A stretch of DNA of 64,000 nucleotides, taken from contig NC_091671.1 in NCBI RefSeq assembly GCF_042453785.1, positions 9,556,001 through 9,620,000 of the forward strand. The letters are read 5' to 3'. The position numbers were made by a program, and so were the translations under genes. Of this stretch, positions 1 through 64,000 are shown one piece after another. The DNA comes from Malus domestica (taxonomy: Eukaryota; Streptophyta; Magnoliopsida; Rosales; Rosaceae). Numbering within the stretch: the stretch's first letter is position 1; each line of letters begins with the position of its first letter. The notes beneath the pieces are model-generated. The model did not search any database and was not told the origin of the DNA. It worked only from the letters and a program-made list of their open reading frames with translations.

Positions 1-852
1 TAATTTATATTGTTAAGCTATGAAAAAATTTGACCCTTAAATCAATTGAACATTTTGGTCAATAAAATAAATATTTTGCTACTTAATATGGTTGTATTTC
101 TCTCCATTTATAAGTGAGAGATCTTAAGTTCGATTCTCGTATATGGTGAGTTCGATACCATTTATCATGGTTGAACCAATAGGGCCCTTTTAGTGAAGTG
201 GATGAGATTGAACCTTGCGCTATGTTTGGATGAAGGAAATAAACTTGAGATTTGTATAAAAGTCAGAATTTATAAATTGACATGCATTAATTCCCTTGTT
301 TGGATTCATAAACATAGAAATTTAGAATTTCCGCATGGAAAAAAAAAACTTGGAATTTGGGACCTCAAAATCCCAAGTTTAAATTCCATGTAAATATGTG
401 TCATTTCCCAATTTCTATGATTAAGAGTTTAAAAATAACAAATTATGTATCCAATTCCATTGTTATTATAGGTTAACCAAACAAGAAAATTTACAAATTC
501 TAGAAAATAAAATCCCGTCATTTCCATTTGAATCTTAGATTGACAGAGACACGTAAGACAAACCTAGGACATTGATTTGATGACATTCATGTTTAGGACA
601 AAACTATTCCCTCAGACATAATTTAAATACCAGCGGTAGTTAACCAAATTAAGTTAATTAACCGTCCGTCCACCGTAAGACATCACCAACCAACAAAAAC
701 TCCGGCAGGTCCAAGTCCACACGGCACACCTCAAGTCAATTCCCAACCCAACTCCTAACTCAACCCAAACCCTGGTTAATCACCGAGTCAGCGACTCAGC
801 CAGACTCGGAGCAGCGCCACGTTAAAAAACACTCTATCGCGCTTCCCCTTCC

Positions 853-884
<32 letters not shown>

Positions 885-921
885 GCTATCCCTCACGAGA
901 GACGACCAGAAACCTGCAGTC
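1..921. other. Upstream region of the U-box gene
   Basis: No convincing gene. Around 95-180 a GTTCGATTCTCG box-B-like word next to AAGTGAGAGATCTTAAG resembles the SINE seen complete at 51382-51557, so this is probably a SINE fragment. The last 250 bases become C-rich and lead into a CT-rich leader, as expected for a promoter and 5'UTR of the gene that starts at 922. No clear TATA box was assigned. Confidence 0.5.
853..879. repeat. (CT)n microsatellite in U-box 5'UTR
   Basis: About 13 CT units lie 43 bases upstream of the start codon. Pyrimidine tracts of this kind are common in plant 5'UTRs. The length is probably polymorphic. Confidence 0.85.
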
Positions 922-3900
922 ATGTCCACCCTCCGTCAACTCCAGACCTCCGCAAACCCAGAACCCCCACAAAACGGTGCCGTTGTGGCTGAGATCGGCG
1001 GCGACGTAGCTATGGAGGAAGACAGAGGCGCTCTGGTGCAGAGCCTGATCGACACGGTCAACGAAATAGCTTCGATCTCCGACTACAAGTGTACGGTCAA
1101 GAAGCAGTACTGCAATTTGGCGAGGAGGTTGAAGCTGCTGACCCCAATGTTCGAGGAGATTAGGGATAGCAAGGAGGTGGTTTCTCAGGAGACTTTGAAA
1201 GCCTTGCTTTCGTTCATGGAAGCTCTGAAATCGGCCAAGGAGCTGCTCAGATTCGGAAGCGAAAGCAGCAAGATTTACCTGGTGTGTGCGTATCTTTCGA
1301 TTCTGAACTGCTATCGTTTTTGCATTTTGTGTGTGATTGTTGGTGAGGGTGATTGTTTTGGTTTTGGTTTTGGTTTTGATTTTCTGTTTGGTAACTGAGA
1401 AAATGCGGGAAATTGAAGGGAAAATGGAGGAAAAAATTGTTCATTTTGAATTTGGAAAGTGCTGTATTTGTTTCTTGTACTGGGTTATGGAGTACATAGT
1501 TTTGACTTCTGTGGAAGCAACCAAAGCAACAACATTTATAAGTTGAAAAACTTAGATCTAAGCTAAGACTAGCAAAACAGTTGCTAGATTGGATTTTACT
1601 TTTGAATGAATAAAGCTGAGGATTATAGTTCTAATTTCTTATCCATTGCCGCATTATTCTCAGCAATCGAATCGACTTCGTTTCGCTACCAAATGGTTCT
1701 AATATTGAAATTCATTTGCTTCTTTCAGTGCTTAGTATATCTTCAATGAAGCGATTCCGTTATTTTTTGTGTGGAAATTGTGATGAAGTGAATTATGGCA
1801 GTCTTAATATTTAGACGACAGATTGAATGGAATTGTTTGATGAGAAATAATTATATACAGGCTCACCATTTTGAGATTGGATAGAAAGTTTCCAAAAAGA
1901 TTCCTTTTAAAAAAAATTCCTTTAAAAAAAAATTCTTAGTCTTTTGCTTTGGGTGCAGTTGCGTCCTTGTTTCGGTGAAAATTTCTCTAGATCTTGGGGA
2001 TTTTGATAAATTTTCCTTTGTATGAATAGAATGTCTATACATTGGGTTTTTAGAGTGTCACTTTCATGACTGATTGTATGGATAGAATTATCTTTGTGAT
2101 GTTCGAATCATTCTATGACGCGTCCTTACTGCTTGATTGTTTTTGTCTCCATTATTTCTGATTGTACTGAGATATAATACTTGAACATTGTTTTGTCTCT
2201 TGTTATGGGTTAGACTTTTGTATATCTTCACGGCTTCACCTATTGAGATGGCCGAATGGTCATGTTGCTTCAGTATTAAGAGCTTGTGAATGAAATTTTT
2301 CAGGTCAATGGAATATTATTGGTTGGTAGTAAAAAGCGAGAATCAATAGAATAGTAGGATATTCTTGGTTGCTTGATATCATGCACTCAGTAGCAGGTTT
2401 CCTGCATTGCTGAGAGTGGTGGCATCATTGATGTCATCTCATTATCCATATATAAACTAAGTGAACAAGATTTTGGTTGTCCTCGGTCTTTCTTTTATTT
2501 GTGGAGGAAATTTGGTAGTTTGATATTGCACCACTTTTGGAGAAGATATTCAAAGTCATTTGTGGGAGAAAGAACAGATTGAATTTAGTAGTTCTTGAAA
2601 AACCACCACTTATGGAATCATCTTGTTAAGTGTGTTCTAGCTGTTAATATGGTTGTTTGGTGTTGAGGTTTTTGTATGATTGATGATTCTTTTACAAAAT
2701 TTTGGGAAAGTGTTACTGCCTTTATTTTGGTCAGAAAATATTGAAACATGCAGCTTCCCTGAACTGAGGATTGAGTTATCTTCTGGCATTAAACTTGTTC
2801 AGGGAAAGCTGTATTAAAACAAGATGGTAAAGAGCTCTGATGTTTTCAACGTGTTCTTCTATGATGATAAATTCAACTTAATAACGTAGTGGAAAATGGC
2901 CACCAACTGTTGGAAAGGGTCGCATACTGTTTGTGGAGCTCAGAGAATGAAATTGACACATTTTTAGGAATACTACCGGATGCTACAGGGGTGATTCTCT
3001 AGACATGGTTTATGATAAATCTGAAACACCATCTCTGCTTTGGGGTTCCTGAATGTCCAGTCTCAATATCTCATTGCTCCCTTTCATGTTTTCTGGTCAT
3101 TCTTTTTATCTTCGTTATTCAAAAATAAGTTTGTAAAAGTGATATGGGTCCTGATTATAAGATTTTCCAGTAATGATGGAATATGGGGCATTTGGGTTTG
3201 AGGAGTAATATTATTTTATAGTTCGATTCAGACGGGAAGGGAATAAGATGGCTAAAAATATATGCTCAGAAACAAACTTTAGATGAGTTGGCTAAAACAA
3301 ACTGTGAGTGGCCCCGATCTCAGTATTAGTGGTTGAGATTTGAACTTAAAAGTCTCACTAAAACCATTGTCATAGTGAATAGGGAGGTGATTTTCACTCT
3401 TTTTAGGTTCTCACACACCCCTCTTTATTTCTGGTGATCGGATTGATTAAATCAAATGGAATCAAAGGCCAGATTAAACAGGGGTGTGCAAGAGGATAAA
3501 AGGGGTGTGTTTATCATTTATGTGACCACTTTGTATAATTTTTATAGAAATACTGAATTTCATTTTCCAATTGGTATGAAACATGCTTGTGAGGAGGCTC
3601 TTTCATGTTACAAACCTCTTGGGTGTTTTATATCATAAGGTCCATTTAACAATGTCCTTTTGCTTTCTATTATTTGCTTGGGCTCTGTTGGATATTCGCT
3701 GTATTCACTTCAAGAATGTTTATATTTATTTTCAATTTTGAATAAACTATGAAGTTAATAAGAGTGCTTCAAACTTCTACTCAGATGATGCCTTGATTAT
3801 TACTCTCTCTCTCTCTCTCTCTCTTGCCTGAACCTTTTTCACCATACTTGTAGGTTTTAGAAAGGGAGCAAATTATGATGAAGTTTCATGAGGTGACAGC

Positions 3901-6363
3901 TCGATTGGAGCAAGCTTTAAGTGGAATCTCCTATGAAAATCTTGACATATCAGATGAAGTTAAGGAACAGGTATAGATTCATCATCGAACATTCCTGTCA
4001 ATGTCTTGGGATGTGATGTGATAACCAGGGCTATCTTCTATTTTTGAATTTGGCCTTGACTTGTTTTCTTTGGGATCCTTGTCACGTATTGTTAAAATGA
4101 GATGCCAAATTTTTCCTTGTGCAATTCTTGAATTATATTCTCTAAAATTTATGAAAAGATCTTTAGTGTGTGAACGACCCACTTACACAGACATGTAACC
4201 ACATGGTGACTTGAAACTTACACCAGTATGTGGTGAAACAAGAATTTGAGTAGATCCCACTCCTAAATGTGTTTGTGATATTACTTTTGAGATTTTTGAG
4301 TACTTAATATATTCTTCAATTGTATCTGTCTTCCAGGTTGAGCTTGTTCTTGCTCAGTTTAGAAGAGCCAAAGGGAGGTTCGATTCGCCTGATGTTGAGC
4401 TCTATGGAGATCTCTTATCCCTTTACAGTAAAAATGAGGCAGCAACAGATCCAGCTGTCCTAAGAAGATTGGTTGATAAGTTAGAATTGACAGGTATAGC
4501 TGAACTCACACAAGAGTCACTAGCCTTGCATGAGATGGTTACTTTCAGTGGTGGGGATCCTGGGGAGAGCATCGAGAAGATGTCAATGCTACTGAAAAAA
4601 ATTAAAGATTTTGTACAAACAGAAAACCCCGACATGGATGCTCCTGCAGGGGGAAAGAATATATTAGCAAGCTGCAGCGGGCAAGCATCCACCGACAAGA
4701 ATCACAAAGTCCCCCCAGTTATACCAGATGATTTTCGGTGTCCAATATCTTTGGAGTTAATGAAGGACCCCGTCATTGTTTCAACAGGGCAGGTATATGC
4801 TTGGTTTTTTATACCAAGAACTCAATTGCTCCATAACTATCCATTTTTCCTTTTTCCTTCATGTTTCATGGGATGTTATTAGATGTCTTTTTCCTTTCCC
4901 TTTTGTGTCAGATGCCAATAACATGTACCCTGTTCTTGTAGAAAAATTGTTGTTACATTGAATTTTTGTTCTTTCTATAATGTATCCAGTTGTTGGGTCA
5001 ATACGTCCTCCATTTGGGGATCAGCCTGGTTGCCTTCCGTTGTATGGTTTTTCAGACACAAACCAAAACTTTTTGATTGGGAGGTTGAAAAGATGTCATG
5101 CAGATTGGATACTTGTTTTCCTATATTTGGGGTTAAATTTTACTTTTTAAGTCCATGCCCTGGGATACATCATGCTACCACTAATTTAAAAGATTTTGTT
5201 TTCCACTGCTGCAGACATATGAGCGTTCCTGTATTGAGAAGTGGCTGGAAGCAGGGCATGCGACATGTCCAAAAACACAACAAAGCCTCTTTAACACCAC
5301 CCTCACACCGAACTATGCTTTACGTAGCCTCATAGCCCAGTGGTGTGAGGCAAATGGCATTGAACCACCAAAAAGACCCAATTCTCGGCCTATTAAAACT
5401 ACATCCTCCTGCTCTCCAGCAGAACGCACTAAGATTGAAATTCTCCTCCGCAAGCTGATGTCTGTTAGCCCCGAAGATCAAAGGTCTGCTGCGGGTGAAA
5501 TCCGGCTTCTTGCCAAACGTAATGCAGACAATCGTGTGGCTATTGCTGAAGCTGGTGCAATACCCCTGCTTGTAGGCCTCCTTTCAACCCCCGACTCCCG
5601 TACCCAAGAGCATGCTGTCACTGCACTCCTCAACCTTTCCATATGTGAGGAGAACAAAGGAAGCATCATAACCTCTGGAGCAATTCCTGGTATTGTTCAT
5701 GTCCTCAAGAATGGAGGCATGGAAGCACGGGAAAATGCAGCTGCGACCCTTTTTAGTCTTTCTGTCGTGGATGAAAATAAAGTCAGAATTGGTGCTTCGG
5801 GAGCCATTCCGCCACTTGTTACATTGCTGAGTGAAGGTACCCAAAGGGGGAAGAAAGATGCTGCAACTGCACTTTTTAACTTGTGCATTTATCAAGGTAA
5901 CAAGGGGAAGGCAGTAAGGGCCGGTGTTGTTTCGACCCTAATGAAGCTGCTGACAGAACCTGGAGGTGGAATGGTGGATGAAGCACTGGCCATTCTAGCA
6001 ATACTCTCTAGCCATGCTGAAGGGAAAGCAGCCATTGGAGCTGCTGAGGCAGTGCCTGTTTTGGTTGAAGTTATTGGGACAGGATCTCCCCGAAACAGAG
6101 AAAATGCAGCCGCGGTTTTGGTGCATCTTTGTTCTGGAGACCAACAACATATAGTAGAGGCTCAGGAACTTGGGGTGATGACTTCGTTATTGGAGTTGGC
6201 TCAAAATGGCACAGATAGAGGCAAGAGAAAGGCTGCACAGTTGCTTGAGCGAATGAATCGGTTTGCTGAGGCGCAGGCACAGGCACAGGCACAGGCACAA
6301 CCTGATGATCAATCTGAGACCCAGTCACATCCACCCACCACTCCAAATGCCGTTGACGGATGA
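922..6363 (+). CDS. U-box / ARM-repeat E3 ubiquitin-protein ligase (PUB14/SPL11 type)
   Basis: Predicted E3 ubiquitin ligase: the U-box would bind a ubiquitin-charged E2 and the ARM repeats would hold the substrate. Coding exons by GT/AG sites and frame: 922-1281, 3854-3970, 4337-4792, 5215-6363, all joined in phase 0, giving 693 aa. Residues 30-260 form the helical UND domain ([21 protein letters not shown], then ERE...ISDEV). The U-box spans about 288-360 ([22 protein letters not shown] runs to the end of exon 3, then [11 protein letters not shown] in exon 4). ARM repeats fill about 395-650 (repeated GAIPxLVxLL and ENAAxxLxxLS). The C-terminus has an Ala-Gln run. Intron 1 is 2.57 kb and holds a CT microsatellite at 3803-3824. 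The size and the layout UND, U-box, ARM match the PUB12/13/14 group; which orthologue it is cannot be settled here. Confidence 0.95.
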
Positions 6364-15526: not shown

Positions 15527-16848
15527 TTACAAGAGATGGCTTGTGGAAGAAGAGTTGAGCCCTGATAAATCTGTCCACGCATTCAAATTTCCACCCCAGA
15601 ACTGGCTATTGTTAGTTTCAGCTAAAATAGTAGTACCCAAAGAAGGTCTTGTTAAAGTAAGACCATGATTATCTTCAGTTTTCACTGGAGGAGGCAACTG
15701 CTCAGTATTAACCCTAGAATTATTCCCAACCATTGGATCAGTTGTTGCTTGATGATCGACTCCTTGATCACCCGTTTGAAATGGGTATAAACCTGTTGAT
15801 GTTGATGATTCAAACCCGGTACCGCCCAAAAATGGAATTTGCTGCAAGTTCGAATTACGCCACTGATTATTATGATCCCCTCCTAATATTCCACCACTTA
15901 AATTGTTCATATTATTGCCTCCTGCAATCTGATGAAATTGAAACCCCATATGATGTTGGTGATGATCAGTCTGTTCCTGCTGGATCTCATTGAAGTTTAA
16001 TCCCATGTTCCCAGCTCCATAACGACCTAGACTTGGTATGGATGAGGCTAGAAATGGTAGTGATTGATGAGTACTTGGTGGTAGTTGTGACAAAAGATGA
16101 GGAGTATTGCCCATCATATGATTTGATGAGTTGTTGGTAATTGAGTTGGAACCTGTTTGGATATGATCGCCAGTGGCTACTGGAGATTTGGATCGACTGC
16201 TGCTGCTGCTGCTGTTGCTTTTAGTTTTCTTGTTTCGGCGACATCCTCCTCCAACAGGAACGCTCCTTAGGGCACCTCCTCGGGTCCAATAACGCCGACA
16301 TGTCTTGCAGAAGTGGCGAGGCTGAGTGAGGCTGTAGTTATTGAAGTAGCAAAACTTGGTGTTAGTGGACTCACACCGAGGACACTTGAGCGCGGTTTCT
16401 GGTTGTGGAATCTTTGCCAGACGGGCTCGATCAGACATCGAGCTGGGTCTGATGGAGCCTGGGCCGCCACCACCACCACCAACACCACTAATACTGCCTG
16501 CACCACAGACATGAGTTAGTGACGGTGGTGGAGGGAGTGGTGGAAGTTCATGTGGATTTTCACTTCCAGCAGTAGTACCTCCTAATGGATGATGATTTGG
16601 TTGCTGCAAGATAATAAAAATCAAAAGAAACTATGAGTTAACCATAAGAAACAAATATTTCTGGTATATTCACAAAGAGATCACAAAGGAATAGGAATAA
16701 TTATCTTTTTAATTTGCTTTTATTTTTGTTCTTCCCTTTTCTAGTTTGGTGAAGATAGAAGTTACAGATGGAAAATTAGAGCTAGAGAAAACATCACCTG
16801 GTGCCAATTGGGAGGATCTACATAAACTGGAATAGATGAGAAAACCAT
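15527..16848 (-). CDS. Dof zinc-finger transcription factor (Dof2.4/Dof5.1/Dof3.6 type)
   Basis: Plant-specific DNA-binding protein; Dof fingers recognise AAAG cores in the nucleus. Exon 1 is 16798-16848 (17 codons, [17 protein letters not shown]). The intron is 16604-16797. Exon 2 is 16603-15527, ending in TAA, for 375 aa in all. The ATG at 16624 lies in the intron and is not used; joining the two exons keeps frame and gives the family's usual N-terminus. The Dof finger has C91-x2-C94-x21-C116-x2-C119 (LKCPRC...FCKTCRRYW), followed by a basic tail (RRNKKTK) with a Ser run. The middle is rich in Gly, Asn, His and Gln. The C-terminus ([16 protein letters not shown]) is a conserved signature of the vascular-linked Dof subgroup in Arabidopsis. 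Choice of orthologue remains open. The 5'UTR is GAAA-rich (about 16920-16990). Confidence 0.95.
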
Positions 16849-17498: not shown

Positions 17499-18514
17499 AT
17501 TTCTGCCTGGCCTCCTCATGCATGGAATAGAGAGAGAACGTGACACAGTAAACCAAATTACATATCACTATCTATTTATTAGCTGTACGGAATAATTTGC
17601 TTAATTCATTTACCAACACGAATTCATTAAAAACAGGCCAAAGCCTCCAGAGATACAACTGAAAGCAAAGGGGAATAGGCACAGGCACCAAAACCCTATA
17701 CAATCAAAGGAAAGGAAACTAACAAGGCCAGGTGATCAGGCCACAACCTTAGAGGCGGAAGGTATCCTTTACCAACATGACTAATTTTCAATATTGTTAC
17801 CCTTGGTCCTGGTTTAGGGAGTGGGATATTAATCATAAACTGGTCTTGGCCTGTGTATGTATATAATTAATTTATTGTTCTCAGAACTACTTAAAAGTAA
17901 TAAACTGATTGAGTGCACTTTGAGATAGTATCATAGGAAAGTAGTTAGTATATGCATGCTTGAGTAACGCCAAAATGTATATAACTTAAAAAGTGCTAAT
18001 TATCACCCAAGGGTTAGCTCATATAGTAAGCGTCTGGATAAATGAGTTAAAATTAGCTTAGATAAAAGGGTTTTTTTTTTTGTCACATTGAAGGATTTCG
18101 AACCCTAAATCATAAATTAAAAGTTATGATTCCCTTCCATAGAAGGGTATGGTTCCCTTCCATTCTTGAAAAGAAAAGAACCCTTGGCATTTGATGTGTT
18201 TGGTTCCTGTTAACATAGTGCTTCCAAATAAACTCAAATAATTTTGGTAATGTTAGGGTGAAATAGACAAATATACTTCTTTGTGGTGAATCACAATGCA
18301 AGTAAGAAGGATAGATCATAGTGGTATTCACATATCCATTTTCATTTCCTACACACCGTTGTTAATTTTTTCCATTAATCTTCTTCAATTCATTTGATTT
18401 GACGGCCGAAAATTGAAAAGAGTATGTGAAAAGTAAAAATAAATATATAGCCAAGTAAGAATTATGCACCGCAAAGAGCATTATAGGCGGTTCTAAGAGA
18501 ATCATATGAGCTAA
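17499..18514. other. Intergenic; MITE-like stretch at the end
   Basis: No gene seen. Bases 18322-18450 (AGTGGTATTCACATATCC ... GTGAAAAGTAAAAATAAATAT) are a weak copy of the MITE at 8311-8462. Confidence 0.4.
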
Positions 18515-18816
18515 TGTCACATCCCAGACCAGGCCCCACCACATCCCGGGCTCGACTCCGCCGTAGCACGATTTGTCAGCTTTAGGCCCCGACCACGGCC
18601 TCACGGTTTTTTTTTTTTCCGGGAACTCACACGAGAACTTCCCAGCGGGTCACCCATCATGGGATTACTCTTGTGCAAACTCGCTTAACTTTGGAGTTCC
18701 GATGGAATCGGAAGCCAGTGAGCTCCCAAAAGGCCTCGTGCTAGGTAGAGAAAGAGATGAGAATAAACATATAAGGCTTACAAAATCCACTCCCTTGGAT
18801 GATGTGGGATGTTACA
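18515..18816 (-). mobile_element. Cassandra-type TRIM solo LTR carrying a 5S rRNA-like promoter
   Basis: Read on the minus strand it starts TGTAACATCCCACATC and ends GGGATGTGACA. Inside are the 5S rRNA internal-promoter words: CGCTTAACTTTGGAGTT at 18682-18698 is the complement of the box-A region AACTCCAAAGTTAAGCG, and GGGTCACCCATCAT at 18647-18660 is the complement of box C. The 5-base flanks GCTAA (18510-18514) and GTTAA (18817-18821) look like a target duplication with one change. No second LTR lies nearby, so it is solo. Confidence 0.85.
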
Positions 18817-19613
18817 GTTAATAAGTGATATACTTACACTAACAAGAAGAATTTTGGAACTCGCATGGTAGCGAAATCCCACATAAAGGGAAAGAAATTT
18901 TTACTGTTTTAAATTCTTAACCAAGAAGGAAGAGTTGATTATACAGTGACTATCAAAAAAGTAAGACTTGGAGATGGATGCTAATTAATTAATCCTGTGA
19001 ACCATATGCTAACCTAGGTTATTATATGCTAAAGATGTATACAAAACAAAAGGTGGGAATTTTATCCACTTGGTTTTTCCTTTTTCTTGTGTAGCTTTGC
19101 TAAAAAAAAAATTATAGTTCTTAATTATTATGACATGCTAAATTACTGTGATAGATAGGACTCCTAAGTAGACCTGGCATTCGTGTCGTGTTTCCCGTGT
19201 TCGTGTCGTTTTCGTGTCATACCCGATATCTTAACAGGTCGTGTCGTGTAACACCCGTTAAAATAAACGGGTAAAATGACCCGACCCGAAATCGACCCGA
19301 TAATATTAACGGGTAATATGACCCGACCCGTTACCCGTTAAGGAAAATATATTTTAAACCAATAAATAATTAAATAAAAAACTTAAAACTTTTTTTGAGT
19401 GAAAACACATTTTTCTTTTAAGTATTGTCACATCCAAAACATACAAACACATTTTTCTTTTAAGTGTATATTTACATATCCAAAATAAGAGCATAATAGA
19501 AAAACATTAGAACATTACAAAATATCAAATGTTCAAAAGATTTGCAAAATTAAGGACATTGGAACATTAGAACATCTTGCACATTTTCTTCCAATCAAAC
19601 CCTTCAATTTTCC

Positions 19614-21924
19614 TTAATCATCATTGGAAAAAGTATTGGAACTTTGGCCTGATATATTATCTTCAAGAGTTATATTGATGATGTTTTCATTGAGGCTTTC
19701 CACATTAGCACTCTCTTCCGCATAATCTAAACATAGAAAAATCAAACATTGTAATTTGTAAGTAAACCATTCAAATTATGGGTACTAAAAATAATTATGA
19801 AAAGAAGTAAAAAATAGCTCTATATTATATAACGATATACTACCTCCTTTTCCAAAAAGCCAATCTCGTGTACACAGCAAAGCTTGAACCGTGTCTGGCA
19901 ACAATGAAGTACGATATTGATCTAGCACTTTACCCCCAATACTAAAAGCAGATTCTGACGCAACAGTTGAAATAGGAATTGTTAGCATATCTCGTGCTAA
20001 CTGAGAAAGTATTGGATAATGAAAACACTCTATTTGCCACCAAGAAAGAACATCTATATCTTGTCTTCTATCTAGTCTTTTATCATCCAAATACTTTTGT
20101 AATTCACCTTTTTCAACTGAGTTTGGACCATTGTAATTATTATCAAAATCCTACATCATAAAAATAAAAAAATAAAAAACATCATAAAAATTATGCACAA
20201 CCCAATTTCAAACATAATATTAATAGTTTTAAACTTTTAAAGTACTATGTATAAAAAGGAAAATACAAACTTTATGTTACCTCAAAGATAGCATCTTCTC
20301 CACCTACTGTTTGATGATTAGGTGTCGAGTTCATTGGAATATTTGAATAATTAAGATGAGCAGATATTTCCGAGTACACACTAAAGAGAGAAGTCAATGT
20401 GGCATAAACATTTTTATATTCCATAGAATTCACGCCATGAAGCTTTGTGTAAGCCCAATCCACAAAATGTAGCTTATAACGAGGATCCAAGATGATTGCA
20501 ATTGACATAATCAAACTGTAATCTGACCAATACTTCTGAAACTTCTTGTGCATATGATCTCCCATCTTATTCATGAAACTATCACAATCATCAATGGCTG
20601 CCTTAATTTGAAGCTGAATTACGAACACTTTAGGGAAGAATAAATTTGATGTGGGGTACTTTGTCCCAGAGAATAAGCATGTAACATCATAAAAGTATCC
20701 CAAAAACTTCGAAATCTTCACCACTTTATCCCACTCTTCAGAAGAAGGACAACTTTCAAAATTTGAATCACTCAACCCTAAATTAATAAAAGCATATCGA
20801 TAGAAAATGGCACTATCTAGCATAAGATAGGTTGAGTTCCATCTAGTAGGGACATCTTGTCTCAAACCTCTTTTACTATCCAATATCCCTACTTGCTTAA
20901 CACATTCTTGAAACTTTAGTTTCCTAGCCTCAGAACCCTTTACATACTTGATGCATTCACGAATTTTTACCACCGAAGAATCAATTTCTTTAAGTCCATC
21001 TTGGACTATCAAATTCAAAATATGAGCACAACAACGCACATGAAAGAAGTCACCATTCATCAAGAGAAGACCTCTAATATTTAATTGATTCCTCAAAATG
21101 TTAACAAAACAAATATTTGAAGAAGCATTATCCAAAGTAATAGAAAATAACTTCTTCTCAATCCCCCACTCAGTTACCAACGCACTTATTTTCTCACATA
21201 ATGCAACACCAGTATGCGGAGGAGGCATGTGACAAAAACTTATAATTCTTTTATTCAATTTCCAATCCTTGTCAACAAAGTGAGCAGTAAGTGCAAGATA
21301 CCCATCAGTGCACTGAGATGACCATAAGTCTGATGTCAAACAAATTCTACCTTCAACCGAGCCTAACAAATTATGCAATGCTTGTTTTTCAGTTTTGAAC
21401 ATCCTCAACACACAAGCTTTGATAGTATTTCGACATGGTAGCTTAATATCAGGAGATACATATGCAAACAAAGCCTTAATTCCCTCATGTTCAACAAAAG
21501 TAAAAGGAAGATTATGCTTGATGATTGCCTCTACTAATAAGCCACGGAATATCAGAGGATCAAACTTTTGGGAACACAATTCAGATGCCGACATAAACAA
21601 TTCAACATTATTCTTTGCAGGGCATGTATTCAAATGTCTTTTCATATTTCCTGTCCCATGAAGACTATCATCTATCATTACCTTCTTACAATCTTTGCAT
21701 TGAGCACGACTTTTACCATCTTCAAAAACAGTATCCAATTTAGTGAAAGTGTTCCAAACAGGAGATCGAAGTTTTCGCTTACCTAAATTGATTGCTCTAG
21801 CCTTTTTCTTTGCAGAACTAGAATTTGTATTGTCTATACTTTCGCTTCCAAGATCTCGTTCTGTTCCCATTATAATCTCCACGGACTCCTCATCGTTTAC
21901 TGAATCTGAATCTCTAGCATCCAT
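19614..21924 (-). CDS. hAT transposase (BED finger, RNase H-like core, dimerisation domain)
   Basis: Exons are 21924-20281, 20150-19844 and 19726-19614, with GT/AG introns; junctions are phase 0 and phase 1, and no stop interrupts the 687 aa. Residues 54-101 form a BED zinc finger (C76, C79, H97, C101). The RNase H-like core includes LTSDLWSSQ near 200 and SITLDNASSN near 260, the probable first two acidic residues, then TRWNSTYLM. The C-terminal hAT dimerisation domain reads STVASESAFSIGGKVLDQYR. A splice acceptor (GATGCAG) sits five bases before the ATG, implying an upstream non-coding exon. It belongs to the RICESLEEPER/DAYSLEEPER-like plant group, though here with intact ends, so an active element is possible. 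Expression is not visible from sequence. Confidence 0.93.
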
Positions 21925-22162
21925 TGCTTCTGCATCAAAATGGGCATAAATGAATCAAAATGACCACAGAACCACAGCAGGTTAATCTATAAATTTGCAA
22001 CTTAACAATATACATACGGGAACAGGTTCCTTCACAAGGGTATTATTCAACTAAAAAAGGATGTGGTTGTGTCTATCAGATTCATATGGACCAATCCACT
22101 ATTGGCAGGATGTTATATCCTTCAGATACATACCATCAGTTCAAACAGATCCAATTATTTAC

Positions 22163-22755
22163 CTCAAGAGTTTCTTTTGGTTCCTTGGTCTTTGCATCAA
22201 TTAGGTCAATGGTGACTGGCTTCCCATCCTTGGCTGGTGTGATCTATCAGAGACAAAAGAAGGTGAAAAACTGAAACAGAAATCCTGAAAAAACTGAAAC
22301 AGAAATCCTGAAAACACTTAATAGAGAAGTCAATCATCAGCTTACCTTGGATGCGAATACCCCAGTTTGATAATCAATCTTCCGTGGATTAATTAGAACC
22401 CTCTGGGCTAACTTTCCAATCTCAGGATCAAAACCAGGCATAAGCTGATCTAAAGCTTCAATGAAAGTAACCTACAAAATACTTGGCATTAATCTACAAA
22501 GCCTTGTGAGATAAGAACTCCTAGATAGTAAAAAAAAAGAGGCTTGAAAAATTAAAATGAATAAAACGTGGGTTTTGAGCTGGTAGACACAAGGAAAGTT
22601 ACTGATTGACCCATATAAAATTAGCAAATTTCACATAGAATTATTGTAAAAATCAGAAGATAAATGAAAATAGAAAGAAAAGAAACTACCTCACTCCCAA
22701 GAGCTGTATATACATCACTGAACTCAAGACCTATGTAACCACTTCCAACAATAGC
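22163..22755 (-). pseudogene. Captured exons of plastid dihydrolipoyl dehydrogenase (LPD1/ptLPD)
   Basis: Three consecutive host exons keep their splice sites. 22755-22690 encodes [20 protein letters not shown] and two more residues, with the NAD-binding GxGxxG motif. 22471-22346 has 42 codons and includes [20 protein letters not shown]. 22243-22163 has 27 codons and includes [20 protein letters not shown]. All three end in phase 0 and have no stops. This is the E3 flavoenzyme of the plastid pyruvate dehydrogenase complex, but only about 91 of over 550 residues are present, with no FAD site, active-site disulfide or dimer domain. It therefore cannot make the enzyme. The 5' break lies at about 22755, where the similarity stops inside an exon. 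Joining to the transposase exon would be out of frame. It sits between the likely first exon and the transposase. Confidence 0.85.
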
Positions 22756-22807
22756 TTCCAAGACCTATGTGAGAAAATTTGTTTATATGTGTTTCTTTGC
22801 TTCTCAG

Positions 22808-22971
22808 ACCCTTGGTTTTGTACTACTGGGTGGCGTGCAAGTACATGTTTTGAATGTAACTGGACTAGTTATCAACACAGCTGGCGGAGTTTGGTATTCA
22901 TTTGCCAAATATTAACAAGGAAGAGCAAGCCAGTAATGCGGATTGCAGATGTGGAGGCTTATCGTAAATAA
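22808..22971 (+). pseudogene. Captured last exon of a nucleotide-sugar / triose-phosphate-type transporter
   Basis: An acceptor (TTCTCAG, 22801-22807) is followed by 35 codons that include GFVLLGGVQVHVLNVTGLVI and NTAGGVWYSFAKY. That is the last membrane helix and Lys-Tyr tail typical of TPT/EamA-type transporters. A TAA at 22913-22915 then ends the frame. One base of frame away, the tail resumes as KSKPVMRIADVEAYRK and ends at 22969-22971. A CAA-to-TAA change plus a one-base loss would explain the break. It runs opposite to the dehydrogenase pieces 50 bases away, so two separate captures were placed back to back. The exact transporter is not identified. Confidence 0.6.
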
Positions 22972-23238
22972 AGTTGATACCAAAAGATTGCATATGGTTA
23001 CTAACAGCTCATTTCTGTTTTTACTTTTTGCTTCTATCTCCACCAAAACACGGCAATTAGTTCTTTGAATGAAAATGATGCACTGTATAAATGTTTAAAC
23101 ATGTTCTGTTCACAGCATATCTGAATTCATTACTGTACTCACATGGTAGAGATGTTCTTGATAAAACAATTCATCATCCGTCGGTTTACATAAGCAAGAG
23201 TGAAGAGAGAGAAAGGTTGAAGAGGGAGAAATACTTAC

Positions 23239-23400
23239 ATAGGAAGATGTCGTACGAATGGAAGACGAGAAGATCGTGGCTGTCGGAAGAGAGCCGAGAG
23301 GGGCTAGGAAGAACAGACGGCGCCGCGGGCGGGTTGGGAGTGGGGAGACTAGACAGAAAGAATTTAGGGCTAGGCAGTCCGCAGCATTGGGGTTTTTTTT
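23239..23400 (-). other. Probable non-coding first exon of the hAT transcript
   Basis: A GC-rich island in AT-rich DNA, ending on the minus strand in a strong donor (CCTAT then GTAAGTAT, cut after 23239). The only ATG in it is closed at once by TAG. Its position upstream of the transposase, whose ATG is preceded by an acceptor, fits a 5'UTR exon. It might instead be another captured piece. Confidence 0.45.
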
Positions 23401-23572
23401 GTTTTGATCAAATCAGTCGGGACTCAAATGGAAACAATGGAAAATATGAGAGGTTTTTTGTCCAAAAAAAATGTAATAATATAATTGAAATAGAATCCAA
23501 CGGTAGAGATTTAATTTCATTTATCTAACGGCTATTATTTAAGTAAATTCTTTAATAGTTTTTTAATTAATT

Positions 23573-24172
23573 TAGAAGTATAAAAAATATAGAAAAAATA
23601 TCGAAACGCTCGTAATAACAAGCTTTACAACTTTCGTGAAGAACTTAACTTCGAAATTCGCCACTATAATCATATAAATCATAGATCAAAATTGAACCGT
23701 TGATTATTGTTTACATTTACGCTTTATTTTTCTCATCGGATTTTGTTTTTTCAGATTTTCTTTTTTGAAAACATGATCTATTAGAGGATGCAAGAAGATG
23801 AACGGTTTGGATCGTTGATATTATGTTCAGAGTTTTACGATTAGTGAAAATATTGCTTGATGTTTATAAAGTTTCTACAAACTATATGACATCGACTCAT
23901 ATTTCAATTAACCGTAAATATCAAAACGTGATATCAAAGATCTGAACCGTTCATCTTCTTACATCCACCAGATGATCATGTTTTCAAAAAAGAAAATTCA
24001 AAAAATGAAATTCAGTAACAAGAATAAAGCGTAAATGACAATCGACGGTTAAATATAAATGGTAGGTTTATGGATTATAGTGTTGGATTTCGAAGCTGAC
24101 CCCTTCATGAAAGTTGTAAAGCTTGTCATTATGAGTGATTGGATATTTTTGTTACATTTTTTACACTTCTAC
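23573..24172. repeat. Long inverted repeat nested in the hAT element
   Basis: TAGAAGTATAAAAAAT ... ACAAGCTTTACAACTTTC on the left is mirrored by GAAAGTTGTAAAGCTTGT ... ATTTTTTACACTTCTA on the right. Inner words also pair: AACCGTTGATTATTG with CAATCGACGGTT; ACGCTTTATT with AATAAAGCGT; AAACATGATC with GATCATGTTT; AAGATGAACGGTT with AACCGTTCATCTT. The arms of about 250 bases would form a long hairpin if transcribed. Likely a fold-back MITE; no clear target duplication was found. Confidence 0.75.
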
Positions 24173-25515
24173 AATAATTATTATTAATTTTATTAATTTT
24201 TCCCTCAAATAAAAAACATTATTCATGAGGGTTTGGGAGGATTTTAAAAATCTAAACGATAAAGTGTAACCATTATCTACTCGTAGAGGAATAAATAATG
24301 ATGAATCGCAAGTGTTTATATATTCTTTCACATTTTTCGTACTTGTATTGTATGAATGTCTTCTTAGTTCTTGCCTATACAAATATTATACTAGTTTATT
24401 TTAATTTTGGACAAGAACATGTTAACTGTTAAGTAAAATTTATTATCCTAGTAAATTAGTAATGATAATAAAGAAGTCTCATAATAAAAATAAGGGGAAA
24501 CTTGATCTAAGTCCAATTTTTTTTAGCCAATAGTAGGAATGGTCCAATTTATTAAAATAAGTCCAATTCTTTAAATTTAATTATTTAATTATCAATAATT
24601 ATCTATTCAATAATAAGATTTATTATAAAAATCAAATTTCTTCCTAATTATCTCTTTGATTATTATTATTATTATTTTGTTATTTCTTGTTCTTCCTCCC
24701 TCTTTAAACCTCATTAGATTTTATTTTTAATTTTTATAATCAACCTATATCACAGGTTAATTATTTTTTTGTATCTATATGACAGATTCTTCTTTATAAT
24801 TAACGTGTTACAGATTAATGTGTCTTGCTTCGCTTGTAGGTATATTATGTTTTCCCTACTTTTTAGTTAGGTTTCATATCTTGCTTATAGGTACAATATA
24901 TATTCATATATTTGTTACTTAAGTTAAGGTAGAATGTTTTGTAGATAATTTATGTTAGTATATTAGTTTTTTCTGTTATAAGATATTAATTAGATTTTTT
25001 GGAGTTGAAAAATGCTTCATATTAGAAGATTTTAATTGATTTTTAATATTTTTAAAAATTATAAAATGAGTATAAAAGAAATAAAAACATGTAATTATAT
25101 AACTTGACTCACACCTAAAAATCATCTATATTTTTGGACATGGATCTAAAAGCCCCTAAAAATAAATAATGACTAAAACTTTTTTTTATAACTTATATAG
25201 AATAATAATACAAAACTATATATTTAATATAGAATATATTGTATATATTAATATGGCTATTGTATTTTATAATAAATCTTTTAGTAATTAAACTTTAAAA
25301 TTATCAAATTAATTTTTTTTCTTAACGGGTCGAAACGGGTCACCCACGTGTTACCCACGTGTATACCCGTTAAGAACCCGTTATTAACAGGTTCTTAACG
25401 GGTCACCCGATAATGACCCGATAAGTTATCGTGTTGACCCGAAACCCGTTATTTTCGTGTCGTTTTCGTGTCGTGTCATCGTGTCGTGTCAGAAACTGCC
25501 GGGTCTACTCCTAAG

Positions 25516-26364
25516 TAGTCAATTACGGCAGATCAATAAAGAAAATATCTGTAACATGCCCCGAATTTTATCCACCTTTATGTCCCTTTTTAGCTTCACA
25601 AAATCTTCAGCTTGTCTCACAACTTTAGTGCCTAACTCATAATTCAAATAAAACAGAAAAGAGAACACCAGAGTATATATAATTAATTTGTCATTTATAT
25701 ATGTTATTTCAGCAAACTAAGAACTAAGGATTAGGAAGCTAGAGTTTCGACCTTTATTTCTTTCTTTTGCTTCTCTTTTTCTGTTAAATCACCTGTTTTT
25801 TTTCTTTCAGAAAGAGACCCATATGGTGTTGTAGGTCGAAAAAACCAAAGAACTATCTTTTGGCTGTGGGGCTGCACCATAATGGACGATACTGAGCCAC
25901 ATAAAAGCTTATTAAGCTTCGTCTATAAGGAATCTTCTTTACTGATCACAGTCAGTACGTAGTATACATATATAAGTTAATTCGAAGACCATACGTTGTT
26001 TACGTAACATGGAAATAATGTAAGCTCTAAATTTTCTACTGTTACGGTTCACAATATTTACAAATATGATCATCTGTAGAGTATATTGTCAATCGTATAT
26101 ATGACGAATATTGATATATAGCACATATATCCGTAAACTTTGGATACGTACGTACTATATGGTCCATCCGCCCATGTCCTGATGTCTATGATACATACTT
26201 CTCGCTCTTTCCTCATTTTTGATACAGCTTGCTTTCTTTATGAAAGAAACATTGCAACATGCTTCAAACTCATTTTTAATTATATGGCCCTTTTTTTTAA
26301 GGGACGATCCATGATGATTAAGAAGATGAAGGGTTTCGATTATAAAATTTATACTATGAAAATA
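25516..26364. other. Intergenic, no gene seen
   Basis: AT-rich sequence resuming the pre-insertion locus right of the hAT element. No ORF with a domain. Confidence 0.4.
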
Positions 26365-27259
26365 CATTACTCGTAGAAAATGAGTTTTGTGGCAATAGTA
26401 GGAAAAGTTATTTGTGCAACAGATGTTTGTGTGACAAAGCAAAATCCGTCGCGCAAGTGCGATTGGCGCAACGAAACAATAGCTTCGTCACACAAGATTG
26501 CTGCTACTTTGTGCGATGAAGAACTTTGTCGCGCAATATAGTTTGCATGACCAAAAAAAAAACTTGTCACTCAAAATCAATAAGAAAACCGCGGGTAATT
26601 TTTTTTGGAGCAAAAAAAAATGCAGTTCAGCAGTTTGATGAACCACCTCCAGCAACAACCTCCTAGCCCCCCGTCGTAGCAGTTATGACCTCCCAGCCCC
26701 CCAACGTAGCAGCAACACCACGAGCAGGCGATTGTGATGTGGACGACTACATATTCTAGTTTTTTTTTTTTTTAATTGTTTTCAAATTTTAAAATATTTC
26801 TTTCCGTTGTATGTACATTTTCAATAATTTTTTTAATTCAATATTCTTCTTTACATTTTTTGTTTTTAATTTCATTAAATTAATTTATACAAAAAACAAT
26901 ATTATCAACATTTAAAAGGAAAAAATAAATAAAAATTATTTAAAAAATAATAATTTTAAAATCTGATTGCGACGGCCTTATGTCTGTCGAGCAAAGGTTT
27001 GGGGGTCGAACCCAAGTTTCGTCGCTCGGAGTATCACGCACAACGAACACTCATTCGTCGCTCTTAGTTTCGCTCAACAACCACCAGATCCGTCGCGCAA
27101 CATTCATTTTGCACGACAAAGCACTTTTCTTCGTTGCGTAATGTCTGACATCACAAGCTTTGCGCGACGTCTTCTTCGCCGCCCAATGTTTACGACAACC
27201 GTATTTGCCTTTGCACGATAGATGTCTCTTTGTCACCCAAGCAGTCATGCTTAGTAGTG
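26365..27259. mobile_element. Possible CACTA-like non-autonomous element
   Basis: The left edge CATTACTCGTAGAAAATG and the inverted right edge CACTACTAAGCATG resemble degraded CACTA ends. Just inside both ends are repeated GTCGCGCAA / TTGCGCGACG words in both orientations, as in CACTA subterminal regions. Ends and duplication are too decayed for certainty. Confidence 0.4.
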
Positions 27260-39273: not shown

Positions 39274-39373
39274 CAATATGTAACCATCGGTTCACCAGTA
39301 TAACCTAATTCACCTTCATACTACTCACAAAAAAGCAAGTTTCATTCAAAAGGTTTTTTACAAGTTTTCAACA

Positions 39374-42326
39374 ATGGCTGCAAAAGGGGAGGGTCCAGCG
39401 ATCGGCATCGATCTTGGAACCACCTACTCATGCGTCGGAGTTTGGCAGCACGATCGTGTTGAGATCATAGCCAATGATCAGGGTAACCGGACGACGCCGT
39501 CCTACGTTGGTTTCACCGACACTGAGCGCTTGATTGGCGATGCCGCAAAGAACCAGGTCGCCATGAACCCCGTCAACACTGTTTTTGGTGGGTATACCTG
39601 CATGTCCAAACCTCGTTTAATTGTTTTTTTTTTTGTTTCGTATCTGCAGATTGCATGCATGATTTGTCTAATATGACCTTTGATCGAAAGATTGTGTGTC
39701 TTAGGGTTTCATGGTGGTTTGATAAGGTTAAAGGTTAAATTGGTCATTGTGATTCATTTGTGTATGTGTGATGGCTCAAGTAAGCGAATATAAATTGGAT
39801 TTGATTGATAAGATTGTTTTATTTTATGTAGTTTGTCGCATCTGAAAAAATAAATGTGGATAGCAATTCGTCGATGATTACATACTATTTGATCACATTT
39901 TTAATCAAGAGGCGTACGACATCTCATAATATATTTGATATATATTTAGTATCTTTTAAAAGAAAACTAACGAAAAGTTTAAAAAAAATTTAGTTTTAAT
40001 GAAAAATGACAAATGAAGGTGTAATAAATAGTATCAGAGAAATGTAAAAATGTGGTTTTTCGTTAAAAGTGAACAACACCGAGAATGTTTCATTAAAACT
40101 CACATCTTTTAATCAAAAAAATTTTAGAAGAAAACATGCCATTTCCTAAGATTTAATTTTGTGAATCACAATTCAATGTAGCCTTTGTTTCCACTATTTT
40201 TTTAATTTTTTTGAGATCATGGATAAATAGAAAAAGAGATTGAGCTCCATGTTTGGACTTGAATGCGAGATGGCTGATTATTGTTGTTGAGTGATGACTA
40301 AAGATTTGTGATCACTTGTGTGTGGATTTGATGTTAGGGACAGATAATTAATGTACTTGTTTTAAATGTTTTAATCTCAATCTTTGGTATATCTAAACAT
40401 GATTTGTGATAGTACAGTTGTAATTGTTGTTTTAGGTTATTGCCATCTTATGCTTTGATTATGATGTTTCCCTTATAATGATTTACTTGATCAGTAATGT
40501 TTCTTTCATTATCCTTTTTTCTTTTTTTTTTTGGTCAAAGCTTTAATATCCAAATTTTGACCACTTACACTTTTGTTTGCTCTATGTTAGATGCAAAGCG
40601 TTTGATTGGTAGGAGATTCACTGATGCCACAATCCAGAGTGACATGAAGCTATGGCCTTTCAAGGTCATTGCTGGTGCCGGCGACAAGCCAACAATTGTG
40701 GTTAACTACAAGGGCGAGGACAAGCAGTTTGCTGCTGAGGAGATCTCGTCTATGGTTCTCACCAAGATGCGTGAAATAGCAGAAGCCTACCTCGGTTCAA
40801 CCGTGAAGAATTCCGTTGTCACAGTCCCGGCATACTTCAACGACTCTCAAAGACAAGCCACGAAGGATGCCGGTGTGATTGCGGGCATGAACGTTATGCG
40901 TATCATTAATGAACCAACTGCAGCCGCCATTGCCTATGGACTTGACAAGAAAGCAACTAGTGTTGGTGAGAAGAATGTCCTCATCTTTGATCTTGGTGGT
41001 GGCACTTTCGACGTTTCCCTTCTTACGATCGAAGAGGGTATTTTCGAAGTCAAATCTACCGCTGGTGACACTCATCTCGGGGGTGAAGATTTTGATAACC
41101 GAATGGTGAATCATTTCGTGCAAGAGTTTAAGAGGAAGAACAAGAAGGACATTAGCAATAACCCCAGAGCACTGAGGAGATTGAGAACATCTTGTGAGAG
41201 AGCAAAGAGGACTCTTTCTTCCACTGCTCAAACAACTATTGAGATTGATTCGCTGTTTGAGGGTATTGATTTTTACTCCACCATAACCAGAGCGAGATTC
41301 GAGGAGCTCAACATGGATCTCTTCCGAAAGTGTATGGAGCCGGTGGAGAAGTGTTTGAGGGATGCTAAGATGGACAAGAGCACTGTCCATGATGTTGTTC
41401 TCGTCGGCGGTTCTACTAGAATTCCCAAGGTGCAGCAACTATTGCAGGATTTTTTCAATGGTAAGGAGCTTTGCAAGAGCATCAACCCTGACGAAGCAGT
41501 TGCGTATGGTGCGGCCGTGCAAGCTGCCATCTTGAGCGGTGAGGGAAATGAGAAGGTGCAGGACCTGCTCTTGTTGGATGTCACCCCTCTTTCACTTGGA
41601 TTGGAGACTGCCGGTGGAGTTATGACTGTTCTTATCCCGCGAAACACTACGATTCCCACCAAGAAAGAACAGGTTTTCTCAACCTATTCGGATAACCAAC
41701 CTGGTGTGTTGATTCAGGTATATGAAGGTGAAAGAACAAGAACTAGAGACAATAACTTGTTGGGCAAGTTTGAGCTCTCAGGCATCCCTCCGGCTCCAAG
41801 GGGTGTGCCCCAGATCACCGTTTGCTTTGATATCGATGCGAATGGAATCTTAAATGTCTCTGCTGAGGACAAAACCACCGGGCAGAAGAATAAGATCACG
41901 ATCACCAATGACAAAGGTAGATTGTCGAAGGAGGAAATCGAGAACATGGTTCAAGAGGCGGAGAAGTACAAGGCAGAGGACGAGGATCACAAGAAGAAAG
42001 TGGAGGCCAAGAATGCACTCGAAAACTATGCTTACAACATGAGGAACACGGTGAGGGATGAAAAGATTGGTTCGAAGCTCAATCCGGAGGACAAGAAGAA
42101 AATCGAGGACGCAGTCGAAGACGCCATTCAGTGGCTTGACGGGAACCAGCTTGGTGATTGTGATGAGTTTGAGGACAAGATGAAAGAGCTTGAGAACCTC
42201 TGCAATCCCATCATTGCCAAGATGTATCAGGGTGCGGGTGCTGATGTGGGTGGCGGAGCCCCGGACAAAGATGCTCCTCCGGCGGCTTCAGGCGGTGCTG
42301 GACCGAAGATCGAGGAAGTTGATTAA
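39374..42326 (+). CDS. Cytosolic heat-shock protein 70 (HSP70/HSC70)
   Basis: ATP-driven chaperone for unfolded proteins, working with J-proteins and nucleotide exchange factors. Exon 1 is 39374-39587 and exon 2 is 40591-42326; the intron splits codon 72 (Asp) at the position conserved in plant cytosolic HSP70 genes. The product is 649 aa, the usual length. The three HSP70 signatures are present: [10 protein letters not shown] near 10, [14 protein letters not shown] near 200, and [13 protein letters not shown] near 340. Then come the substrate-binding domain ([13 protein letters not shown] onward) and helical lid. The C-terminal KIEEVD marks the cytosolic/nuclear form that docks TPR co-chaperones. 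There is no transit or ER signal. The ATG at 40497 lies in the intron and is not used. The intron holds a MITE at 39960-40103. Confidence 0.98.
39960..40103. mobile_element. MITE inside the HSP70 intron, 9-bp duplication ATCTTTTAA
   Basis: ATCTTTTAA flanks at 39951-39959 and 40104-40112. The body (AAGAAAACTAACGAAAAG ... TGTGGTTTTTCGTTAAAAG ... GTTTCATTAAAACTC) is a third copy of the 34111-34259 family. It lies 372 bases past the donor and 487 bases before the acceptor, so splice sites are untouched. Confidence 0.85.
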
Positions 42327-63639: not shown

Positions 63640-63677
63640 CATAAACCCCTAAACCCTGGAAAAACAAAGACAAAAAA

Positions 63678-64000
63678 ATGGAGGGTGATCACCATCACAG
63701 TGCAGTCCTACTGGACCAGCGGCATGTGCAGGCGGGTTCTGGGCGTGCCGGGGACAGCGGGAGTACATCCCGATGGAACCCAACAAAGGAGCAGATTGAT
63801 ATGCTTGAGAATTTTTACAAGCAAGGAGTGAGGACGCCAAGTGCTGAGCAAATACAGCAGATAACGAGTAGCCTGAAGGCTTTTGGTCACATCGAGGGGA
63901 AGAATGTTTTTTACTGGTTTCAGAATCACAAGGCAAGGCAGAGGCAGAAGCAGAAGCAAGAGAGCATAGCTTATAATCGCTTGTTACATAGAAGGACAAC
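63678..64000 (+). CDS. WUSCHEL-related homeobox protein, WOX2-like (5' part only)
   Basis: Homeodomain transcription factor of the WUS clade; WOX2 acts in the apical lineage of the early embryo in Arabidopsis. The 107 codons visible start at the first ATG after the CT leader. The WOX homeodomain runs from about R32 to Q94: [20 protein letters not shown], then [12 protein letters not shown], then [20 protein letters not shown], the WUS-type helix 3. After it comes [14 protein letters not shown], where WOX2 proteins normally read AYFNRLL; a Phe codon is absent here. The frame is open to the window end; the C-terminal WUS box would lie beyond it. WOX2 is the best fit by RWNPTKEQI and the QKQKQE tail, but WOX1 cannot be fully excluded. 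Confidence 0.9.

Follow-up and report, generated by a model that had tools for sequence, protein, structure and literature searches.

The grapevine family Hatvine-6, described in 2008, comprises hAT elements that bear a transposase together with genic segments that vary, and the available sections of that report list 17 copies with potentially functional frames (PMC2528002). For the gene fragments of the maize Ds elements, errors of break repair were named as a possible cause (PMC3260210). Here we describe a hAT element of 6,339 bp at positions 19169–25507 of a 64,000-nucleotide stretch of the Malus domestica genome (contig NC_091671.1, positions 9,556,001 to 9,620,000; the whole stretch is called the window below). 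The element belongs to a multicopy family and has an open transposase frame. Very probably, the host DNA that it contains was copied from contigs C8 and C16 during repair inside an intron of its 5′ untranslated region (5′-UTR).

Results

The element and its empty target site

One assembly of 651 Mb in 19 contigs was searched (contigs are labelled C followed by a number, and short positions are in Mb). The homeolog pairs encountered in it were 13/16, 8/15 and 3/11. The ends of the element were intact. The 8 bp duplication CTCCTAAG, of the length expected for a hAT, was exact on both sides. The two ends TAGACCTGGCA and TAGACCCGGCA were identical at 10 of 11 bases and divergent further in, forming the short terminal inverted repeat (TIR) shared by the family. 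With the left 300 bases as a query, the match started at the terminal base in all but one of the 40 scored matches, which started at base 3.

The homeologous stretch at C3:8301540 aligned across the insertion site without the element (80% identity over bases 248–595 of the flank query), and showed one copy of the target, CTCTTTAAG in place of CTCCTAAG. As this site is empty, the insertion must postdate the divergence of these homeologs, and it corresponds to one precise unit. The initial annotation, made from the sequence of the window alone, had proposed a structurally complete hAT at these coordinates forming a single mobile unit; the ends, the open frame and the continuous C3 locus confirm the first point and support the second.

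Host DNA replaces the interior of the native intron

The cargo region, 21961–23192, stands in place of the interior of the native 5′-UTR intron of the family. Transposase-bearing relatives matched the window as far as position 21955, and again from position 23193 wherever their right side was covered, with the native intron in between. In eight of the nine other copies that were at least 95% alike, the intervening sequence matched the CA-repeat-rich native intron of copy L017. In the ninth, L038, the native intron ends flanked a different captured segment.

The initial annotation had announced two unrelated host fragments between a probable first exon and the transposase. They were found there, and a donor could be assigned to each: a lipoamide dehydrogenase (LPD) gene on C16 and a transporter gene on C8 (Table 1). 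The element thus holds host gene DNA between its ends, as Pack-TYPE elements do. For each piece a single locus stood out as a close donor, the other relatives being more distant. The trimmed core of the LPD piece differed from the C16 donor at 5 of 761 aligned sites (0.66%), plus indels of 23, 1 and 2 bases; the homeolog on C13 differed at 112 of 757 sites. The 23-base indel was a perfect tandem duplication at 22266–22311, in a captured intron, and was absent from both donor and homeolog. The transporter piece, composed of the end of the last intron, the last exon and downstream DNA, differed from the C8 donor at 14 of 420 core sites (3.3%), plus four 1-base indels. Its C15 homeolog differed at 11 of 193 sites in the exon part. 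The early stop in this piece is a later mutation, as donor and homeolog read on. Intron sequence was retained in both pieces, so genomic DNA was copied.

Once joined, the LPD exons matched the Pfam model Pyr_redox and dihydrolipoyl dehydrogenases; we take the captured gene to be of the plastid type. The joined exons of the C8 donor gene matched TPT in Pfam and GDP-mannose transporter structures. No Pfam match was obtained for the 37-residue transporter tail alone, and Pfam searches of unspliced frames missed the transporter piece as well as the NIPA-like pieces of the relatives described below.

The inner junctions lie at about 21951/21961, 22752/22768 and 23192/23193. The initial annotation had placed them near 22163, 22755 and 22971. 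The first and last of these fall inside captured pieces (22163 being an exon end); the middle junction is at about 22752/22768. The same annotation had envisaged that the fragments might be a later nested insertion, recognizable by junctions found in no other copy and by duplications of their own. The junctions were indeed private to the window (see below), but no duplication and no inverted or nested ends were present around the cargo at its junctions. Neither piece was repetitive: outside the element they matched the donors and a small number of related genes. A separate mobile unit inserted in the intron would also have interrupted the native sequence, which is replaced instead; this hypothesis was rejected and is extremely improbable.

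The transposase gene and splicing around the cargo

The transposase is encoded by a single open frame of 687 amino acids in three minus-strand coding exons separated by GT-AG introns (Table 1), in agreement with the open three-exon gene previously noted. The Pfam models for the hAT dimerisation, hAT RNase-H and BED domains all scored above their cut-offs, narrowly for BED (22.2 versus 20.6 bits). The Hermes transposase (PDB 8edg and 4d1q) also matched, 8edg being aligned over residues 51–642, including the dimerisation end. The first D, the RW and the E columns, presumably the catalytic residues of Hermes, were aligned; the second D was unaligned in that output, though an LDN motif is present. 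With its open frame, the element may still be mobile at present.

The predicted donor site of the first exon, GTAAGT, is at 23238 on the minus strand, and 21929 is the first base of the first coding exon. The first exon is probably non-coding, which would make the first intron a 5′-UTR intron. The cargo sits between the exon-1 donor and the acceptor that precedes the coding sequence, so that the transposase frame is untouched and the cargo can be regarded as a tolerated passenger. Judging from these sites, the transcript is most likely spliced around the cargo, the intron being simply removed.

The captured LPD exons might instead be functional: transposase transcripts could include them as cassette exons, or they could give rise to small RNAs acting on the LPD gene. 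Two of them are complete, with intact AG/GT sites and in the sense of the transposase, and their 99% identity to the donor could permit small-RNA targeting. However, their inclusion would add three upstream ATGs and an open frame that is not in phase with the transposase start. Spliced-in LPD exons would therefore more likely hinder than help the transposase, and we consider a function very unlikely.

A model for the capture

Two junctions contain repeats templated within tens of bases, of nine bases on the left and ten bases in the middle. In shuffles of the filler, stretches picked after the repeats had been noticed, these lengths were reached in 7 and 10 of 5000 trials, respectively. Such locally templated repeats suggest a repair of the break by copying with template switching, a route deduced from the junction sequences.

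We propose that a double-strand break or an excision gap opened in the 5′-UTR intron of the element. The gap would have been repaired by copying unrelated genomic DNA from C8 and C16, with the loss of the native intron interior. The capture would most likely have occurred in two steps, the transporter piece coming first. The cargo would then be spliced out with the intron, leaving the transposase frame untouched and the cargo tolerated as a passenger.

The divergence of the two pieces from their donors is unequal (Fisher p about 0.001), which favours two captures with the transporter first. At the rate of about 4 × 10−9 per site and year given for Rosaceae in the available part of the source (PMC11197308), a divergence of 0.66% would correspond to about 0.8 million years and one of 3.3% to about 4.2 million years.

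It is possible, though rather unlikely, that a single repair event with template switching took up both pieces, the gap in divergence reflecting constraint, faster decay or an unassembled donor allele. The pieces adjoin with short filler only, and the LPD piece has exons under constraint. The 5 differences within the exon portion of the transporter piece are all on the window branch and are changes from G/C to A/T. A single event must nevertheless accommodate the unequal counts of differing sites, although the LPD piece is mostly intron.

Several observations weigh against the proposed model. The match between the middle filler and the transporter side is nothing special, being reached in 3172 of 5000 shuffles, and the right junction is a plain join with neither microhomology nor filler. 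The appearance of two steps could also come from differences in rate or from a donor haplotype that was not sampled. The capture may, moreover, postdate the insertion at this locus, in which case the element would not have moved with its cargo; no second copy with the cargo was found.

The family and the distribution of the cargo

The main transposase exon was present at 10 places at least, including the window, with 95% identity or more across almost the full query (40 of 122 candidates were scored); a split copy at C6:1.58 was found in addition. The frame was open in three of these 10 copies (the window, C16:24.15 and C10:19.07) and broken in seven, five judged on the whole frame and two (L036 and L038) on part of it.

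The initial annotation had suggested that the family could spread the host fragments through the genome. This was contradicted by the edges of the other copies. The cargo junction was found in none of 33 other transposase edges, which all ended at or before 21958 (39 of 39 candidates scored), and in none of 29 other exon-1 edges, which all began at 23192 or later (32 of 32 scored). No LPD or transporter match of at least 50 bases was listed in 24 loci at 18 places.

Thirteen relatives were examined and both ends were located in nine of them. Perfect 8-bp duplications flanked eight (L011, L013, L014, L015, L016, L017, L019 and L020), and seven of eight bases agreed in L018. For L009, L010, L012 and L021 the right end was not found within the stretch examined. 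Three full-length copies, L011, L017 and L019, lie within 80 kb (C10:25.92–26.00) and have the same duplication, ATATAAAT, and the same 20-base coding deletion. They were therefore multiplied most simply by segmental duplication and not by transposition.

The exact target duplication, the matching empty site, the divergence of the cargo from its donors and the coherent structure of the family leave hardly any room for an assembly or annotation artefact, even though the evidence comes from one assembly.

Two further observations were made on the relatives. L014, L015, L020 and L021 have the same ends and contain arrays of a tandem unit of about 347 bp, extending over at least 2.3–3.7 kb beside the family foldback sequence; their left-end identity is about 89% in L014, L015 and L021, and 97% over a shorter stretch in L020. 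L010 and L012 have some 3 kb in common, at 97.6% identity, which by eye may be retrotransposon sequence.

Other captures by the family

The family captures host DNA repeatedly. A gene segment from C15:3802558–3804062 (97% identity) was present in three copies, at C6:23.68, C11:33.76 and C6:15.97, none of which had a transposase match within the stretch examined. Both ends were located in two of them, L013 and L018, with duplications of 8/8 and 7/8. The joined exons of the segment remained below the Pfam cut-offs (Mg_trans_NIPA, 18.6 versus 26.2 bits; EamA, 22.3 versus 28.2 bits), and the name NIPA-like that we use is mainly our assumption.

A second segment, probably derived from C13, lay beside intron or exon-1 sequence of the family at no fewer than four places (C15:51.18, C3:32.93, C5:15.33 and C8:24.91). 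In this search 40 of 66 candidates were scored, and ends and duplication were examined for C15:51.18 (L016). The candidate donor is C13:23540122–23541208 (94%, the best listed match without adjoining family sequence), with an 81% relative on C16. Finally, a broken transposase-bearing copy at C11:34.47 contained about 511 bases from C16:32723884–32724396 (95%) inside the native intron, and part of this segment was common to C14:19.54. Pfam gave no name for the donor gene of L058.

The window included, four histories of capture were traced in the region from the left part to exon 1, drawn from copies near the queries used and not from a survey of the family. We put forward, tentatively and as an unlikely hypothesis, that the 5′-UTR intron is a recurrent and tolerated cargo slot. 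The transposase would be kept while the intron is loaded with host exons in successive rounds of repair, giving self-propelled carriers whose cargo exons could be spliced as cassettes.

Coordinates and neighbourhood

Table 1. Features of the apple hAT element, in window positions.
Feature	Position	Strand	Remark
Left target site duplication CTCCTAAG	19161..19168	.	Sequence; empty homeologous C3 site
Left TIR TAGACCTGGCA	19169..19179	+	End comparison; 39 of 40 scored matches begin here
Transposase coding exon 3, with stop	19614..19726	-	
Transposase coding exon 2 (hAT dimerisation domain)	19844..20150	-	
Coding exon 1 of the transposase (BED finger, RNase-H fold), translated from 21924; acceptor TTTTGATGCAG just upstream	20281..21929	-	
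Junction filler; ATCAAAATG at 21954-21962 repeats 21934-21942	21952..21960	.	
Captured LPD segment from C16:11917942-11918710, introns kept, transposase sense	21961..22752	-	
Complete captured LPD exon, AG/GT sites intact	22163..22243	-	
Complete captured LPD exon, AG/GT sites intact	22346..22471	-	
Partial captured LPD exon, donor site intact	22690..22752	-	
Filler between captured pieces, with copy of CAAGACCTAT from 22725	22753..22767	.	
Captured 3′ end of nucleotide-sugar-transporter-type gene from C8:11187308-11187737, antisense to transposase	22768..23192	+	
Own right part: first-intron start, exon 1, upstream region, native foldback, subterminal repeats	23193..25496	.	
Native foldback	23564-24180	.	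Relatives have foldback too
Right TIR TAGACCCGGCA	25497..25507	-	
Right target site duplication CTCCTAAG	25508..25515	.	Sequence

The foldback was considered as an insertion private to the window and rejected as such, being present in relatives. The left flank contains, at 18569–18818, a highly abundant repeat some 250 bp long, found at dozens of places at least (40 of 2556 candidates scored), mostly 80–88% alike and often with more than one copy nearby. From their translations, read by eye, we take the neighbouring genes of the window to encode a U-box/ARM protein (826–6360), a DOF factor (15530–16630, about 2.5 kb from the element), an HSP70 (39284–42323) and a homeobox protein (63645–63998). 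An Rfam scan of 18000–27000 gave no matches and a tRNA scan of the 64-kb window found none.

Comparison with known systems

The view of the initial annotation that non-autonomous carriers are where gene capture normally occurs fits the definition of the Pack-TYPE elements (PMC8903248), but not the transposase-bearing hATs known from grapevine (PMC2528002). In Pack-TYPE and Pack-hAT elements, as in the apple element, host gene DNA lies between hAT ends, and the NIPA-like relatives fit this class directly. As described in the available text, Pack-TYPE elements are by definition non-autonomous, and the apple element with its open transposase frame falls outside the definition (PMC8903248). According to the same text, the packFinder pipeline classes every element that has a transposase match as autonomous, and does so ahead of the search for host genes. 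The apple element would thus be excluded, and captures in coding-competent elements would be missed, which represents a blind spot of this pipeline (PMC8903248).

The maize Ds2-22 and other Ds elements are, like the apple element, hATs with a filler of copied genomic exon and intron sequence, but in the available sections of the report they are non-autonomous, whereas the apple frame is open (PMC3260210). The fungal hATs with histone H3 also carry host gene sequence, and multiply it. From what the consulted part of that paper gives, H3 was captured from a transcript or as a retrocopy without introns, whereas the apple cargo is genomic DNA with introns and is single-copy (PMC6710886). The gap-filling Pack-TIRs of animals resemble the apple cargo in being single-copy captures with internal breakpoints, for which template switching was invoked. 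Microhomology was reported there at one breakpoint or more in 67.6%, compared with apple, where two of the junctions have locally templated filler and the third is a plain join (PMC8277862). With Hermes, the likeness is limited to a distant sequence similarity of the transposase; the apple element is from a plant and has different ends.

Hatvine-6 and the apple element both combine a common transposase and common ends with a segment that varies and often shows high identity to exons and introns of the host (PMC2528002). They differ in the ends (13 bp in Hatvine-6 and 11 in apple) and in the duplication (9 and 8 bp), and the available part of the Hatvine-6 description mentions neither a location in the 5′-UTR intron nor a two-step history (PMC2528002). 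Among the papers listed on apple and on hAT gene capture (titles and abstract openings, subscription papers being mostly outside the collection), none reported the apple family. The apple element is a clear and unusually well-resolved new example of a known phenomenon, the transposase-bearing hAT with captured genes. Because the donors, their homeologs, the native intron of the relatives and the empty target site are all present in one genome, the capture can be followed at nearly single-base resolution.

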